Shown here: piece by piece, positions 4,569 to 41,807 of the stretch
How the letters are laid out: each line of letters begins with the position of its first letter
Numbering within the stretch: the first letter of the stretch is position 1
From: Syntrophorhabdus sp.
GTDB taxonomy: Bacteria > Desulfobacterota > Syntrophorhabdia > Syntrophorhabdales > Syntrophorhabdaceae
Assembly (NCBI GenBank): GCA_012719415.1
Contig: JAAYAK010000099.1
Span: 1 to 44,897 of the forward strand
Direction: 5' to 3'
Length of the DNA: 44,897 nt
Program-made: the position numbers and the translations under genes
The notes under the pieces: model-generated
What the model was told of the DNA's origin: nothing
The model's database searches: none
Seen by the model: only the letters and a program-made list of their open reading frames with translations

Positions 4569-4959
4569 GGGGCCTTATTTGAGTTTGACATCTCTTGCAC
4601 GAAAAAAGACCGGGATCGGCGGCGAATCTGTCCATCCGCTTCAAGGAATAGCTCGACTCCTTCCCGCAATCTCCGCATCTGAACGTCATACTCTTTATCC
4701 ATATGAGGTTCCATTCATCACACACAGGCTCGTATCCGATCAGTTCCATCCCGCAGGTCATCATATCCTCAACAGCCCTGACAAATCGGGGATAGAACCG
4801 GAAGAATCTCACAACGTCACCCTGCTTGTTATCGATGATGCTGTTGCATCCGGGACAGCCGATCATCCTCGCCGCGAGAATGTCATTGACCCGGTCTTCA
4901 CTGAAAAAGAACCGGTCGAGGCATCTTCGGCATATAAAGGCAGCATCTCTCGGAAACAT
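4414..4959 (-). CDS. Multi-zinc-ribbon protein, opposite strand within the early region
   Basis: 181 aa with three pairs of CxxC knuckles: CRRC (residues 10-13) with CPGC (35-38), CGDC (95-98) and CKRC (120-123), plus further cysteines. It therefore has at least two zinc ribbons. The N-terminal ribbon resembles zinc-binding treble-clef domains of nucleic-acid-binding proteins. No enzymatic motif is visible. It is the only minus-strand gene of the prophage right of the repressor and is separately transcribed from a region with a TCAAAT-CTG-ATTTGA palindrome. This suggests expression in the lysogen. A minus-strand AAGGAA precedes the ATG. Function unknown; DNA or RNA binding is inferred. Confidence 0.7.
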   Translation of the reverse strand: MFPRDAAFICRRCLDRFFFSEDRVNDILAARMIGCPGCNSIIDNKQGDVVRFFRFYPRFVRAVEDMMTCGMELIGYEPVCDEWNLIWIKSMTFRCGDCGKESSYSLKRMDRFAADPGLFSCKRCQTQIRPLKIVKEYFVSFRQVHRSADRLHTFLWDILSPLQLPVERFPVQWPEYGRASS

Positions 4960-14100: not shown

Positions 14101-14402
14101 TCGGGCGAGGCATGGCCGGATGAGCTGTGGTTCGGTGGGCTCGGCCCGGTATGGTGTGGTTTCGCGTGGCGGGCTATGTCGAGTCAAGGCAAGGCAAGGC
14201 GAAACACCCCTTCGGGGGTGTCACCGGATGATATCCGGTCTGATGAGCCTCAGGGCAAGGCGGTTTGTGGCCGGGTTATGGTTAGGCGCGATCGGGTGAG
14301 GTTAGGCGGGCTCAGGTGCGGCTCGGCAAATGCTGGCATGGCGAGGCGAGCTTTGGCAAGGCAAGGTCTGGCAAGGCAGGGATTATTTGCTTGGGAGGTT
14401 TT
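14101..14402 (+). repeat. G-rich degenerate repeat tract upstream of gemA
   Basis: About 300 bp without a convincing gene. It is built from degenerate GGCAAGGC / GGCGAGGC / GGTTAGGC-type units, e.g. AAGGCAAGGCAAGGCG at 14186-14201 and GGCAAGGCAAGG at 14357-14368, almost free of C-runs on this strand. In the middle are two perfect hairpins (14204-14221 and 14223-14239). Short GGCAAGGC-like repeat blocks in front of gemA are something I recall from other transposable phages. Function unknown; candidates are a middle-promoter regulatory region, transcript pausing, or a recombination hot spot. Confidence 0.7.
14204..14239 (+). terminator. Tandem hairpins, first with a UUCG tetraloop
   Basis: ACACCCC-TTCG-GGGGTGT (14204-14221) is a perfect 7-bp stem closed by C(UUCG)G, the most stable RNA tetraloop. 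One base later, ACCGGAT-GAT-ATCCGGT (14223-14239) forms a second perfect 7-bp stem. No T-run follows, so a Rho-independent terminator is not typical; transcript 3'-end protection or processing is possible. Confidence 0.55.
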
Positions 14403-36640: not shown

Positions 36641-37178
36641 CGATGTGATCAGGCTTCTCTTCCCCATTGAGCTCACGGGGGTATCGGACGGGGATATCGC
36701 CCTTGAAGGAAGCGTTCTCGATGCCGCTGAAACCCAGGCCCGGGAGCTCCTCGAGGAGATGTTCCCGGACAGGAGCGTCAAGTGCCTCACCGACTGGGAG
36801 CGTGTGTGCGGCCTCACGCCGGCAACCGACGCGACGCTGCAGTCCCGGAGGGATAACGTCGTGCGCAAGCTCCGGGAGCGAGGCGGGCTCTCCCGGGCAT
36901 ACTTCATCGCCCTGGCGGCCGCCATGGGCTACACGATCACGATCGAGGAGCTGCAGCCATTCATGGCGGGCTGGAGCCGGGCCGGGGATCCCCTTTATGA
37001 GGAAGAAGTGCGGTTCATCTGGAGGGTCAAGGTATCGGGCCAGGCGCTGTACTATTTCCGGGCGGGGCTGTCGACGGGAGGGGAAAGGCTCCTATGGTGG
37101 CCGTCCGTGACGGCGCCCGAGGATCTCTTCAACAACCTGAAGCCTGCCCACACCTACATCATATTTGACTACAGTTAA
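36630..37178 (+). CDS. Baseplate protein (Mu gp48-like, DUF2313/YmfQ)
   Basis: 182 aa: 'ETQARELLEEMFPDRSVKCLTDWERVCGLTPATDATLQSRRDNVVRKLRERGGLSRAYFIALAAAMGYTITIEELQPFMAGWSRAGDPLY' is typical DUF2313. It links wedges to the tail fibre. Overlaps the J-like gene by 11 bp. Confidence 0.9.
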   Translation: MSHSDVIRLLFPIELTGVSDGDIALEGSVLDAAETQARELLEEMFPDRSVKCLTDWERVCGLTPATDATLQSRRDNVVRKLRERGGLSRAYFIALAAAMGYTITIEELQPFMAGWSRAGDPLYEEEVRFIWRVKVSGQALYYFRAGLSTGGERLLWWPSVTAPEDLFNNLKPAHTYIIFDYS

Positions 37179-37189
37179 GGAGGGATACC

Positions 37190-38290
37190 ATGAGCAAGAC
37201 CACATACGTCGACGGCAACCCCGCGGAGGGGGTCCCGGGAACGATCGTTACAGCGGATTTCTTGAACAAGGTCAATAACCACCATCACACCGGGAGGGAT
37301 ATCGACGGCGAGGGGGCGCTGGCCTATGCCGCGGATACCGGGGAGGCTAACGCTTACGTCCTGTCGCTCTCTCCGGCGCTCGACGCCTACATCACCGGCA
37401 TGCCTATATGCTTTAACGCCGAAAACGCCAACACCGGGGCGTCGACGATCGATATCAACGGGCTGGGCACGAAGACGATTAAGAAGAACGGAAGCGAGGA
37501 CCTCAGCATCGGGGACATCCTCGCCGGGCAGATCGTGACGGTCATCTATGACGGGACGAACTTCCAACTCATGGCCGCGCCCAGGGCCCTGCCACTTCGG
37601 GATGCGGCCCGGGGGCTCATCGTCAAGAATAACACCTCGAACCCGAATTACCAGGTCGACATCACCGCCGATGAGATGATCCTCCAAGACAGCGCCGGCA
37701 ACCCGATGCGCATCCTCAATCTGAGCATGACGGCAGACATAACGGTGAGCGGCGCGGGTGGTCTTGATGCGGGCTCGGAGGCTGCCTCGACATGGTACCA
37801 CCTCTGGGTGATCGCCAAGGCCGACGGGACGAAGTCGGTCATCTTCTCGACGAGCGCTACGGCGCCCACACTGCCGGCGGGGTACACATATAAGGCATAT
37901 ACGGGGGCCTGGTACAACGGCTCTGACGGGCATTTCAGGAAGGCTTATCAAATTGGCCGCCGGGTCACGATGGAAGGAATGACAGCCGATATGTCAGGCG
38001 GGACGGCAACGAGCTACACGGCTGTTACGATTAGTGTCCCTACAACCGCGCGGATATGGCATGGTTGCCTCGGTATTACGGCAAATTCGGGCGTGGGGTC
38101 GATCCTGTTAGCGAGTGATAGCTCGTGGGCGGGTAACTGTTCTCAAATCGGATGGGCAGGTAGTAGTGTGTTGCATCAAGCAATGCACAGCATAATAATC
38201 AAAACCCCACAAACACTCTACTATGCCCTTCAAGGATCACCGTATGTGACCTTAGCTGGGAGCCTGTGGACATCAGGATGGGAATACTAA
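37190..38290 (+). CDS. Tail fibre protein
   Basis: 366 aa. The N-terminal 'TYVDGNPAEGVPGTIVTADFLNKVNNHHHTGRDIDGEG' is a baseplate-attachment module; beta-rich shaft modules follow ('GASTIDINGLGTKTIKKNGSEDLSIGDILAGQIVTVIYDGTNFQLM'). The distal 110 residues (from about 37960) change base composition to clearly more AT-rich DNA and end in an aromatic tip ('SLWTSGWEY'). This suggests a horizontally exchanged receptor-binding end. No invertible segment is seen. Confidence 0.85.
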   Translation: MSKTTYVDGNPAEGVPGTIVTADFLNKVNNHHHTGRDIDGEGALAYAADTGEANAYVLSLSPALDAYITGMPICFNAENANTGASTIDINGLGTKTIKKNGSEDLSIGDILAGQIVTVIYDGTNFQLMAAPRALPLRDAARGLIVKNNTSNPNYQVDITADEMILQDSAGNPMRILNLSMTADITVSGAGGLDAGSEAASTWYHLWVIAKADGTKSVIFSTSATAPTLPAGYTYKAYTGAWYNGSDGHFRKAYQIGRRVTMEGMTADMSGGTATSYTAVTISVPTTARIWHGCLGITANSGVGSILLASDSSWAGNCSQIGWAGSSVLHQAMHSIIIKTPQTLYYALQGSPYVTLAGSLWTSGWEY

Positions 38291-38301
38291 GGAGGACCTT
38301 C

Positions 38302-38649
38302 ATGAAATACGCCTACATTCTAACAGACGGCCAGGCTCACGATCTGAGGTTCGTGGCCGATGACTATACCCCGGCTCCGGGGGAAACCATCGCCGACGGG
38401 GACATTCTGCCCGACATCGAGACACTTCACGAGGCGTCATACATCGCCGCAAGGGCTGCCGCGGCCCTGAAGGTCTCGGCCCAGGAGGCCCTCGACAGGT
38501 CGGACATCACGATCCTGCGGTGCTACGAAAACGCCGTGGCGGTCCCCGGGACCTGGCAGACATACCGGACGGAACTAAGGGCGATCGTCTCCGGGACCTC
38601 ATCGGCGACGGAGCTGCCCGGAATGCCGGCATACCCGGAAGGGACATAA
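38302..38649 (+). CDS. Tail fibre assembly-like protein
   Basis: 115 aa from ATG 38302, with AAGGAGGACC upstream. 'MKYAYILTDGQAHDLRFVADDYTPAPGETIADGDILPDIETLHEASYI' and a C-terminal 'ILRCYENAVAVPGTWQTYRTELRAIVSGTS' resemble the end of tail fibre assembly/DUF4376-type proteins (W-x-x-Y-R-x-x-L-R motif). Likely chaperone or tip component for the fibre. Confidence 0.65.
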   Translation: MKYAYILTDGQAHDLRFVADDYTPAPGETIADGDILPDIETLHEASYIAARAAAALKVSAQEALDRSDITILRCYENAVAVPGTWQTYRTELRAIVSGTSSATELPGMPAYPEGT

Positions 38650-38655
38650 AGGAGA

Positions 38656-38735
38656 GGCGGACAGTACCCAAGGGAGTTAGCCCTCCCTCAGACAAGCGTT
38701 AGCGCGCTTGACGGGATAACCCGCTACCATCCGCC
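38656..38735 (+). ncRNA. Candidate structured leader RNA upstream of the DNA methylase
   Basis: GGCGGACAGTA (38656-38666) pairs with TACCATCCGCC (38725-38735) except for two central mismatches. The closed stem encloses three perfect hairpins: AGGGAG-TTAGCC-CTCCCT (38671-38688), CAAGCG-TTAGCG-CGCTTG (38693-38710) and CGGG-ATAA-CCCG (38712-38723). The whole is a four-way junction of 80 nt. Bases 38676-38686 are also perfectly complementary to the methylase Shine-Dalgarno region (38821-38831). No known riboswitch class was recognised. Confidence 0.55.
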
Positions 38736-38800
38736 ATAGGACTTGAATTATGCTCGAGAGTAAACCAGAGCAAAGAATGTAGCAGGGAACCCCCGGTAAA

Positions 38801-38817
38801 ATCAAACTCTATTTGAT
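38801..38817. promoter_or_regulatory. Palindrome ATCAAA-CTCTA-TTTGAT before the methylase
   Basis: A perfect 6+5+6 inverted repeat 4 bp upstream of the methylase Shine-Dalgarno. It may be a DNA operator or a small RNA hairpin. Half-sites resemble those at 4979-4993 and 39620-39636. Confidence 0.45.
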
Positions 38818-38833
38818 ATAGGAGGGCTAACCC

Positions 38834-39625
38834 ATGAAAAGTTTCTTATCGTATTACGGCGGCAAGTCGCTTCTCGCGAAGAGAATCATCCCCAGGATCC
38901 CGGAACACACCTGCTACTGCGAGGTATTCGCCGGGGCCGCCTGGCTCCTTTTCAAAAAGGAAGAGTCGAAGGTAGAGGTCATAAACGACATCAACAAGGA
39001 CCTGGTCACACTGTACCGGGTCATCAAGCATCATCTCGAGGAGTTCATCCGTTATCTCAAATGGATCCTCGTGGCCAGAGAGGAATTTGCCCGGTTCAAG
39101 GCCGAAAACCCGGAGACCCTGACGGACATCCAGAGGGCGGTGCGGTTCTACTATCTTATGAGGACGGGGTATGGAGCCAAGCTCGTCGGACAGACGTTCA
39201 GCGTCGGGCCCACCAGGCCGTCATCGCTCAACCTCCTCAGAATCGAGGAGGAGCTCTCCGCAGCCCACCTGCGTCTATCCAGGGTCTATATCGAGAACAT
39301 GACCTATCAACGGCTCATTGAACGTTTCGATCGCCCTGAGACCTTTTTCTACATCGATCCGCCCTATTACGGGTGTGAAGAGGATTATGGGAAGGGGATA
39401 TTCGACAGGGAAGACTATCGGCGACTTCGGGACGTTCTCACCGGGATCAGTGGACAGTTTGTTCTGTCTATCAATGACGTTCCCGAGATTCGGGAGGTCT
39501 TCAAAACATTCTTGATCGAGGAGGTTAAGACGAGCTATACCATCTCGGGAGCGGACAAGCAGCAGAGGGTCACAGAGCTCCTGATCCGAAACTACGAACT
39601 GCCATCAGAATCAAGCGCGATTTGA
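38834..39625 (+). CDS. dam: DNA adenine N6-methyltransferase (D12 class, Dam-like)
   Basis: 263 aa, alpha-class m6A methylase: 'YYGGKSLLAKRI' (7-18), FAGAAWL S-adenosylmethionine motif (32-38) and catalytic DPPY (175-178). Target sequence cannot be told from this; Dam-type GATC is possible. It occupies the place of mom at the right end of Mu and could protect phage DNA from host restriction. It is separated from the tail operon by a 184-bp structured leader. SD GGAGGG (38821-38826) can be masked by the leader. The stop codon lies in a palindrome. Confidence 0.9.
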   Translation: MKSFLSYYGGKSLLAKRIIPRIPEHTCYCEVFAGAAWLLFKKEESKVEVINDINKDLVTLYRVIKHHLEEFIRYLKWILVAREEFARFKAENPETLTDIQRAVRFYYLMRTGYGAKLVGQTFSVGPTRPSSLNLLRIEEELSAAHLRLSRVYIENMTYQRLIERFDRPETFFYIDPPYYGCEEDYGKGIFDREDYRRLRDVLTGISGQFVLSINDVPEIREVFKTFLIEEVKTSYTISGADKQQRVTELLIRNYELPSESSAI

Positions 39626-39636
39626 CAGTATCAAAT
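39620..39636. promoter_or_regulatory. Palindrome ATTTGA-CAGTA-TCAAAT over the methylase stop
   Basis: A perfect 6+5+6 inverted repeat covering the methylase stop codon, 12 bp before the right terminal repeat. Half-sites have the same sequence as those at 4979-4993 but in the opposite order. It could be an operator or a transposase accessory site. Confidence 0.4.
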
Positions 39637-39647
39637 AATTTTCAAAG

Positions 39648-39693
39648 GTTAGTTATAACGTTATTTGCTACTCAATTATCGCACGCGGCTACA
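39648..39693 (-). repeat. Right terminal inverted repeat of the prophage
   Basis: The reverse complement begins TGTAG and contains TGCGATAA, AATAA and TATAA blocks in register with the left end. It ends in CTACA at 39693, followed by the AGATGG duplication. Confidence 0.8.
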
Positions 39694-39699
39694 AGATGG
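39694..39699. repeat. Target-site duplication, right copy (AGATGG)
   Basis: Identical to 1589-1594. Joining the two copies restores a host intergenic region between the deacetylase and selB. Confidence 0.75.
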
Positions 39700-39723
39700 G
39701 TGATGGGGGACGGGGGATAGAAA

Positions 39724-39861
39724 CGGTTCAAGGGTTCAAAAGTTCAAGAGTTCAAGAGTAAAAAGGAAAGAACGCCGGATGCCTTCGGCCGGTGTGCGAA
39801 TTGTGCAAACCACCCCCCTTCGCGACCTTTTCCGTGAACCTTGAACCTTGAACCTTGAACT
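39724..39861. repeat. Inverted short-repeat arrays upstream of selB
   Basis: Left arm: four 8-nt units NNGTTCAA in tandem (39724-39755). Right arm: three GAACCTT units plus a partial one (39836-39861), the reverse complement of AAGGTTC. The arms can pair across about 80 nt of unique sequence. No gene lies in the 221 bp from the prophage end to selB. The selB promoter region (TATAGT at 39898-39903) lies just downstream. Confidence 0.7.
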
Positions 39862-39914
39862 GCCTTTCCCCCCTTTCCCTGCGCGCCCCATTCGTGGTAT
39901 AGTCTTACCCTGTC

Positions 39915-41807
39915 ATGAAACGTATAATCGTAGGTACCGCGGGGCATATCGATCACGGTAAGACGACCCTGATCAGGGCGCTTACGGGCATCGATTGCGA
40001 TCGTCTCAAGGAGGAGAAGGAGAGGGGCATTACCACGGAGCTTGGTTTTGCCCACTGGCGCCTGGATGAGGATCTGCTTGTCGGTATCGTCGATGTCCCC
40101 GGTCATGAAAGATTCGTACGTCACATGGTGGCTGGCGCCTGGGGCATCGATACGGTGCTTCTTGTTGTTGCCGCTGACGAAGGGGTTATGCCGCAGACGC
40201 GGGAGCACCTGGATATATGCGAGATCCTGGGGCTCACGAAGGGGATCGTCGTCATAACCAAGAAAGACCTCGTCGACGCGGAAATGGTCGAGCTCGTGGA
40301 AGAGGATGTCAGGGATTTTCTCAAGGGCAGGGCGCTGGAGAATGCCCCCGTGGTGGCGGTGTCCGCGACGACGGGAGAGAACCTCGATCTCCTTAAGGGC
40401 ATGCTCCGTGACCTGTCGACGGGAATCGAAGAGAGATCGAGAGAGGGGATCTTCCGGCTGCCTGTCGACAGGGTGTTTACCCTTCGAGGGATGGGGACCA
40501 TTGTCACGGGGACCTGTATTTCCGGACATCTTTCCGTTGGGGAGGAAGTGGAGTTGTTCCCTTTCAGCAGGAAAGCCAGGGTTCGCAGCATACAGGCGTA
40601 TCACGAGGACGTGAAAGAGGCCAGCGCCGGACAGAGGATCGCCTTCAACCTTCAGGGACTTGACAGGCAGGATGTGGAAAGGGGAAGTATGGTGGCTCGT
40701 CCCGACACGCTCCTGCTGACGTCGCGCATCGATGCCTCGCTGCGCCTTTTGAAGCTTCCCATGAAACCGATACGCCACGACAGCATACTGCGCTTTCATA
40801 TCGCCACGACACAGGAGGAGGCACGTCTCGTGCTGCTTGAAAGCGACCAGATAGAGCCGGGACAGGAGCTCTTCGTGCAATTCGTCTTCAAGAGACCCAT
40901 CGTCGTTCTTCCCGGTGACAGATTCATCCTGCGCGGTTCGTACGCCATCCAGACGGTGGGCGGGGGGAAGGTTCTCGACATCATGCCCGCGAGACACAAG
41001 AGAAAGACGGGCGAGCTCGGGAGAGCGTACCACGTTCTCAGCAAGGGGACGGACCTTGAGAAGGCGGCGTATCATGTCTTGAAGGGTGGTTTTCAGGGGG
41101 TCAGGCAGCAGAACCTGTCCATACTCACCGGAAAGGATATTCCTTCCATAGAGAGAGTGGGAGAGGTTCTCCGGAAGGAAGCGATCGCGACCCTTGTCGG
41201 GAAGACATACCTGCACAAGGATTATTTCGACGCGTACCGGGAGAAGGTTGTTGCCTTCGTTGGGGAGTACCACAAGGCAAACCCCCTGAAGATCGGCATC
41301 TCGAAGGAAGAGTTGCGATCACGTCTTCCCGCCACCGACGTCCAGGTGTTTCAGTCGGCCCTCGATGTGTGTGTAGCCGCCGGGCTTATCGTCGTCGAGA
41401 AAGACCGCGTCCGGTCCCGGGACCACGCCCGGGGCACCAGCCAGACGGACGAATTTGAAAAGCGTGTTCTCGATGCCCTCCTTACGGCGGGATTCACCCC
41501 TCCCGGTCTGAAAGACCTCGCGGGGATCGTGGGGGTCACCGAGAAGAATGCGCGGGAGCTTCTCGAGCGCCTTGCCTTCACGGGGGGAGTGGTGAAGGTT
41601 GGCCAGGACATGTACTTCCACAGGGACATGATCGAAGAGGTGAAGGAAAAGGCGGCGAACTATCTCCGCGATCACCAGGAAATGGGTCCCTCAGACTTCA
41701 AATCGGAGCTCAACCTCTCACGAAAATTCCTCATACCCCTCCTCGAATACCTCGACCAGATCAAACTCACGATCAGGAAGGGAGACAAGAGGGTATTAAG
41801 GGGATAA
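39915..41807 (+). CDS. selB: Selenocysteine-specific elongation factor SelB
   Basis: 630 aa. GTPase: P-loop [12 protein letters not shown] (7-18), switch I GITTEL (38-43), DVPGHE (60-65) and TKKD (115-118). EF-Tu-like barrels follow. The C-terminal half has winged helices ('[45 protein letters not shown]', '[33 protein letters not shown]') that bind the SECIS hairpin. It delivers Sec-tRNA to UGA codons, so the host makes selenoproteins. No clear Shine-Dalgarno is present, and a TATAGT -10 lies 11 nt upstream of the ATG, so the leader is very short. It is the downstream neighbour of the prophage insertion. Confidence 0.97.

Follow-up and report, generated by a model that had tools for sequence, protein, structure and literature searches.

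A conserved RNA leader before phage DNA-modification genes pairs with the ribosome-binding site and may act as a translational switch

Phages that modify their DNA to withstand restriction must avoid modifying it too early or excessively, and Mu with its Com protein is the textbook case. In Mu, the ribosome-binding site of the late modification gene mom is hidden in RNA, and the leader is opened by Com (PMC6483171); mom expressed at the wrong time kills cells (PMC4461284). The leader of the MS2 maturation gene carries an upstream complement of the ribosome-binding site and has a cloverleaf-like fold, and its transient structure allows early translation (PMC6733600). Translation-type riboswitches such as SAM-II and TPP thiC join a conserved domain of several helices to a downstream platform in which the ribosome-binding site is either hidden or free, while the ribosomal-protein leaders in Rfam (L20_leader) are structured mRNA leaders that control translation of the next gene.

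Here, we describe a leader that shares features with each of these systems. It precedes a DNA methylase gene (dam) of a Mu-like prophage in a stretch of 44,897 nt from Syntrophorhabdus sp. (contig JAAYAK010000099.1), hereafter the window. As in Mu, the gene modifies phage DNA, computation and comparison place its ribosome-binding site within an RNA structure that would have to be opened, and the likely reason for control is the same, namely the toxicity of ill-timed modification. Unlike in Mu, where the opener is Com, the window has no Com, and its leader of 175 nt contains a junction. As in MS2, the final fold, here a computed one, pairs the ribosome-binding site with an upstream complement. 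However, the present leader belongs to a DNA phage and to DNA-modification genes, its complementary strand sits inside a junction hairpin, and the junction sequence is strongly conserved over several phyla. A conserved domain with two exclusive folds is what a riboswitch-like translation switch would have, yet the window leader matches no Rfam riboswitch. The likeness to ribosomal-protein leaders may extend to the mode of control; no leader matched one over the cut-off, and the gene content is unrelated.

The right part of the window is a Mu-like prophage (Phage_Mu_Gp48 match), and dam is its last gene. Beyond it, the host gene at 39915 looks like selB from its reading frame. The stop codon of the upstream phage gene and dam are 184 nt apart (Table 1). 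A consensus scan of 37000-40500, weak as such scans are, returned no promoter-like site, including in the interval that separates the leader from the upstream gene. A tRNA-like or known RNA at the leader was rejected on negative ARAGORN and Rfam results.

Table 1. Features of the dam leader and its flanking genes in the window
Feature	Position	Strand	Evidence and remarks
Upstream phage gene	38311-38649	+	Stop codon 38647-38649, 6 nt 5' of P1
Four-way junction core	38656-38735	+	Folding, covariation, covariance-model match of 91.5 bits (model R1 matches 38655-38736)
P1	38656-38661 with 38730-38735, plus 38664-38666 with 38725-38727	+	Part of junction core
P2 hairpin AGGGAG-TTAGCC-CTCCCT	38671-38688	+	Loop and 3' arm form the anti-ribosome-binding-site strand; folding, covariation, coevolution
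11-nt anti-ribosome-binding-site strand GTTAGCCCTCC	38676-38686	+	Exact complementarity, coevolution, shuffle test
P3	38693-38699 with 38704-38710	+	Part of junction core
P4	38712-38715 with 38720-38723	+	Part of junction core
Conserved UAGCAGGG...CCC segment	38779-38795	+	Complementary to P4/P1 strand CCCGCUAC; predicted junction opener once transcribed
Small hairpin ATCAAA/TTTGAT	38801-38817	+	Just 5' of the ribosome-binding site; in some relatives only
dam ribosome-binding site with extension GGAGGGCTAAC	38821-38831	+	Partner of 38676-38686
dam, D12-class N6-adenine DNA methylase	38834-39625	+	Presumed controlled gene; PF02086 (4.5e-30); phrog_56

A sequence-only reading of this DNA had proposed an 11-nt complementarity between the leader and the methylase ribosome-binding site, an 80-nt four-way junction, and two exclusive folds. 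The complementarity was correct in coordinates and letters, GTTAGCCCTCC being the exact reverse complement of GGAGGGCTAAC. A perfect 11-nt match arose in 0.06% of 5000 dinucleotide shuffles when the leader was shuffled against the real ribosome-binding-site region, and in none when both were shuffled. The junction was borne out by its folding energy (-36.2 kcal/mol, z -3.55) and by covariation in homologues. The 201-nt leader reached -65.6 kcal/mol (z -3.58), and its minimum-energy structure contains the long-range duplex. Since bases 38683-38688, the 3' arm of P2, are needed by both, the junction and the duplex are mutually exclusive; computation and comparison support the proposal of two such folds, one of which hides the ribosome-binding site. 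The same reading had pointed to a TTAGC sequence shared by hairpin loops. This is present in the window but not conserved, the P3 loop varying freely in relatives, and the repeat was rejected as a meaningful feature.

For the full-length RNA, the ensemble energy was -69.2 kcal/mol with the ribosome-binding site hidden (OFF) versus -62.1 kcal/mol with the junction enforced (ON), which favours OFF by about 7 kcal/mol. Such energies are rough for RNAs of 200 nt, and the relative stability and the folding order are both computed. When minimum-energy folds were followed in the growing transcript, the junction formed first and was displaced near 38799, once the UAGCAGGG...CCC segment was out.

Next, related leaders were compared. 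Methylase-based searches yielded 184 related loci, and about 45 leaders of other phages and prophages have the same junction, with covariation. Thirty-nine leaders, found in viral contigs and in Thermodesulfobacteriota and Nitrospirota hosts, could be aligned across the junction (alignment A2). Standard pairing was found in 90.2% of the named junction pairs versus at most 44.5% when the pairs were slid, and both sides had changed in 11 of 24 pairs. Sequence conservation was strong at P1 (CGGACAGUA...GCUACCAUCCG) and P4 (ACGGGAURACCCG), and CGGACAG..GCUACCAUCCG was conserved across phyla. The sequence at 38779-38787 is also conserved; pairing between UAGCAGGG and CCCGCUA occurred in 87.5% of cases, no more than in shuffles, so that covariation lends it no support, and both this pairing and the junction-opening role of the segment are predictions.

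Because the full-length alignment (A3) was too gappy at the ribosome-binding-site strand, column counts were replaced for this helix by swapped-partner tests. Each P2 strand was paired with its own ribosome-binding site or with that of another leader, using 29 representatives with less than 80% dam identity and 20,000 permutations. Own pairs had a mean energy of -16.1 kcal/mol versus -12.1 kcal/mol for swapped pairs (z -9.5), and no permutation was as low (0/20,000). Eight control segments from the same leaders gave z values of -2.2 to +1.4, and a whole-leader version of the test gave z -8.6. Helices of 9-13 bp were found in 16/48 leaders, with 13 different sequences, versus 4.4% of swapped pairs. 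The window's helix counts 10 bp inside the segment tested, and one relative (L195) has a 13-bp helix, TCGCACCTCTCCA with TGGAGAGGTGCGA, in which both partners have changed. The P2 strand of about ten leaders pairs with no more than the 5-nt core of the ribosome-binding site; the pairing is therefore widespread, not uniform. In four of these leaders (L010, L037, L087, L113), the 5' arm of P3 (ATGCGAT or TGCGCTC type) is a better partner for the start region than P2, and P3 seems to replace P2 in the same job. The covariation check in homologues, which had been named beforehand, thus came out in favour of both the junction and the long-range pairing, and on this comparative evidence we regard the two structures and their coevolution as established.

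Since the junction leaders had been found via dam, viral contigs were also scanned by the P4/P1 core alone. A dam homologue lay directly downstream in 42 of 45 copies, a few of the genes being visibly broken, and the remaining three copies preceded genes of DNA modification or restriction-modification other than dam. One core (L241) is followed by genes for a small CxxC protein and for an N6_N4_Mtase (PF01555). Another (L245) is followed by a gene for a DAM-like-phage1 plus GNAT-phage-like protein (PF22555, PF22559) and then by ParB-like and EcoRI-methylase genes. The third (L231) is followed by a short frame, a frame weakly matching an uncharacterised PHROG, and a gene for a BsuBI/PstI restriction endonuclease (PF06616). 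In all three, pairing of the P2 strand with the start region of the frame that follows comes to about -20 kcal/mol. Model R1, run on 395 genomes across the phylum, gave nine matches, eight of them upstream of dam. Taken together, the core scan and the genome search show that the element tracks DNA-modification genes and not a single gene family, a link that comparison of sequences establishes. The exception in the genome search (L198, G197:C1:1336490-1336571) is a 52-bit junction match with no methylase in the flank examined; the second copy in that genome precedes dam. In one viral contig (L224), leader cores at 1832-1852 and 4655-4675 fall within 2.8 kb; both precede a dam gene, and the gene after the first core is truncated.

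A second leader, similar in design, precedes many dam genes that are more distant; it has a GAGC/GGCTC-like stem and the hairpin GGTGCGNNAACACC. Its third hairpin ends in a strand like GTGAGCC, and the start region is like GAGGCTCAC. The consensus fold of this second class has compensatory changes in 13/14 pairs, and its strand and the first gene's start region coevolve (z -9.0 in 47 leaders; z -3.0 in the 14 that precede com). It was found before dam, com-dam and com-mom operons and lies 5' of com in most com loci inspected. One such locus (L324) is a com-mom operon, in which the leader is followed by com (PF10122) and a mom whose product is 65% identical to Mu Mom. By reading sequence, we located the second class in phages B3 (before com), KS9, VP882, phiHAP-1 and MuM16-1, and the same reading found none in Mu, including the Mu com leader. 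On the methylase tree, leader and com arrangements switch about 14 times. Junction-like sequence also occurs before com at two loci (L122, L125). A rule of either com or an RNA leader, never both, was considered and rejected, most com loci inspected having a second-class leader upstream.

The sequence-only reading had gone further and seen in the leader a com-mom-like switch opened by zinc-ribbon proteins of the prophage. What stands is a modification-gene leader that, judged from its sequence, would be able to block translation; a Com-like zinc protein acting here does not. The Mu arrangement, in which com lies upstream of and overlaps the modification gene, is absent at the window, where that gene is a D12-class dam and not mom. 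No PF10122 (Com) match was found in the window contig, and none of 43 window-class leaders has a Com-like frame upstream. PF10122 exceeded the cut-off in 1/14 window-class contigs (away from dam) and 0/11 second-class contigs versus 8/8 com contigs, and the proposal is therefore left without positive evidence. Opening by a Com-like protein of this prophage could draw on the precedent of the Mu mom leader and on the few CxxC-rich open frames of the window, two of them on the prophage strand. Against these stand the PF10122 counts and the fact that elsewhere a leader sits 5' of com itself, and we consider it highly improbable. Nor is this a convergence confined to this prophage: the same class serves non-homologous modification genes, and the second class is found 5' of com. 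For these two reasons, we take the leader to be a layer separate from Com that coexists with it elsewhere. The contig of one window-class leader (L042) encodes a Com-like zinc ribbon (31 bits, G405:C1:11794-11880), far from dam.

We propose that the leader acts in cis, as an RNA switch on the translation of phage DNA-modification genes, a reading to which we assign a probability of roughly 0.6. The junction would fold first during synthesis, P2 would lock the anti-ribosome-binding-site strand, and ribosomes could reach dam (ON). Once transcription has passed the UAGCAGGG segment and the dam ribosome-binding site, the junction would open and 38676-38686 would pair with 38821-38831 (OFF). Conserved junction residues may bind a putative small-molecule or protein factor that stabilises ON. 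The methylase would then be made under the right condition only, and the cell would be spared ill-timed DNA modification. Because the hidden fold is preferred at full length, yet the junction forms first, we infer that the junction serves as the ON state and as the sensor; it is probably either held by some factor or short-lived after synthesis. The conserved residues could instead serve folding alone.

A switch that senses a factor is not the only way to read these folds. In a delayed-folding timer of the MS2 type, the ribosome-binding site would be open on young mRNA only, giving a short burst of methylase and requiring no ligand. The greater stability of OFF, the earlier formation of the junction, and the cloverleaf-like MS2 leader with its transient structure all fit such a timer, which nevertheless strikes us as rather unlikely, as CGGACAG..GCUACCAUCCG is conserved across phyla far beyond the needs of a kinetic trap. 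Dominance of the OFF fold in the computed ensemble would equally suit a static brake that holds the methylase constantly low, without regulated switching. A plain hairpin on the ribosome-binding site would be enough for that, yet a competing conserved junction that uses the same strand has been kept, and a static brake is in our view unlikely.

The position of the leader raises the question of a trigger by upstream translation, in which terminating ribosomes about 9 nt before P1 would unfold P1 and set the state of the switch. The upstream stop codon is separated from the junction by 9 nt (median) in relatives and by no more than 40 nt in 34/39, and the upstream genes differ. However, tight packing is general among phage genes, the distance may therefore be meaningless, and a terminating ribosome would disrupt P1, not P2; this trigger is very unlikely. 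As for chance pairing in a G+C-rich intergenic region, its sole attraction is that anti-ribosome-binding-site sequences are generally common. With a shuffle frequency of 0.0006, conservation and coevolution against it, its probability is practically negligible, and we regard it as refuted by the homologues.

The window leader follows a known principle, that of a structured leader hiding a ribosome-binding site, and its class is absent from Rfam: nothing in Rfam 15 exceeded the curated cut-off, either at the window leader or at those of the related loci scanned. A literature search, mostly without subscription papers, found nothing on such leaders. An RNA motif named D12-methyl, from a survey of 224 candidate RNAs, reportedly lies upstream of D12-class DNA methylase genes. 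If it is part of Rfam 15, it has no match at the leaders scanned here. The related RNAs before the DNA-modification genes of many phages suggest an uncatalogued RNA control layer that times DNA marking. Many phages may thus use RNA leaders for the timing step, whether before dam, com or unrelated modification genes, and the leaders point to a possible new sensor RNA. It is conceivable, at somewhat less than even odds, that the two related but distinct classes, neither of which is in Rfam, together make up a common layer of control that senses a ligand or a protein and responds to one shared infected-cell signal before any phage modification operon (dam, com-dam, com-mom, N4/N6 methylase, DAM-like plus GNAT). 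The cultured phages VP882, B3 and KS9 are among the carriers, which makes the timing of DNA modification directly testable.

Just 3' of the outer stem of second-class leaders lies a perfect DNA palindrome with a changing centre (for example in L096, L063, L067, L099 and L200). Examples of such palindromes are CCTGTACAGG, CCTACGTAGG, CCTAGCTAGG, CTCTCGCGAGAG and GCTCACGTGAGC. A palindrome of at least 10 bp was present in 62% of 77 second-class leaders versus 6% of shuffles, and its apex is self-complementary, a trait that plain hairpins do not require. A hammerhead core considered in the linkers of four leaders (L005-L008, CTGATGAGTC) was dropped, with no Rfam match at these loci. Within the prophage of the window, an Rfam type II hammerhead ribozyme match exceeds the cut-off at 14197-14254 (+ strand, 40.1 bits).
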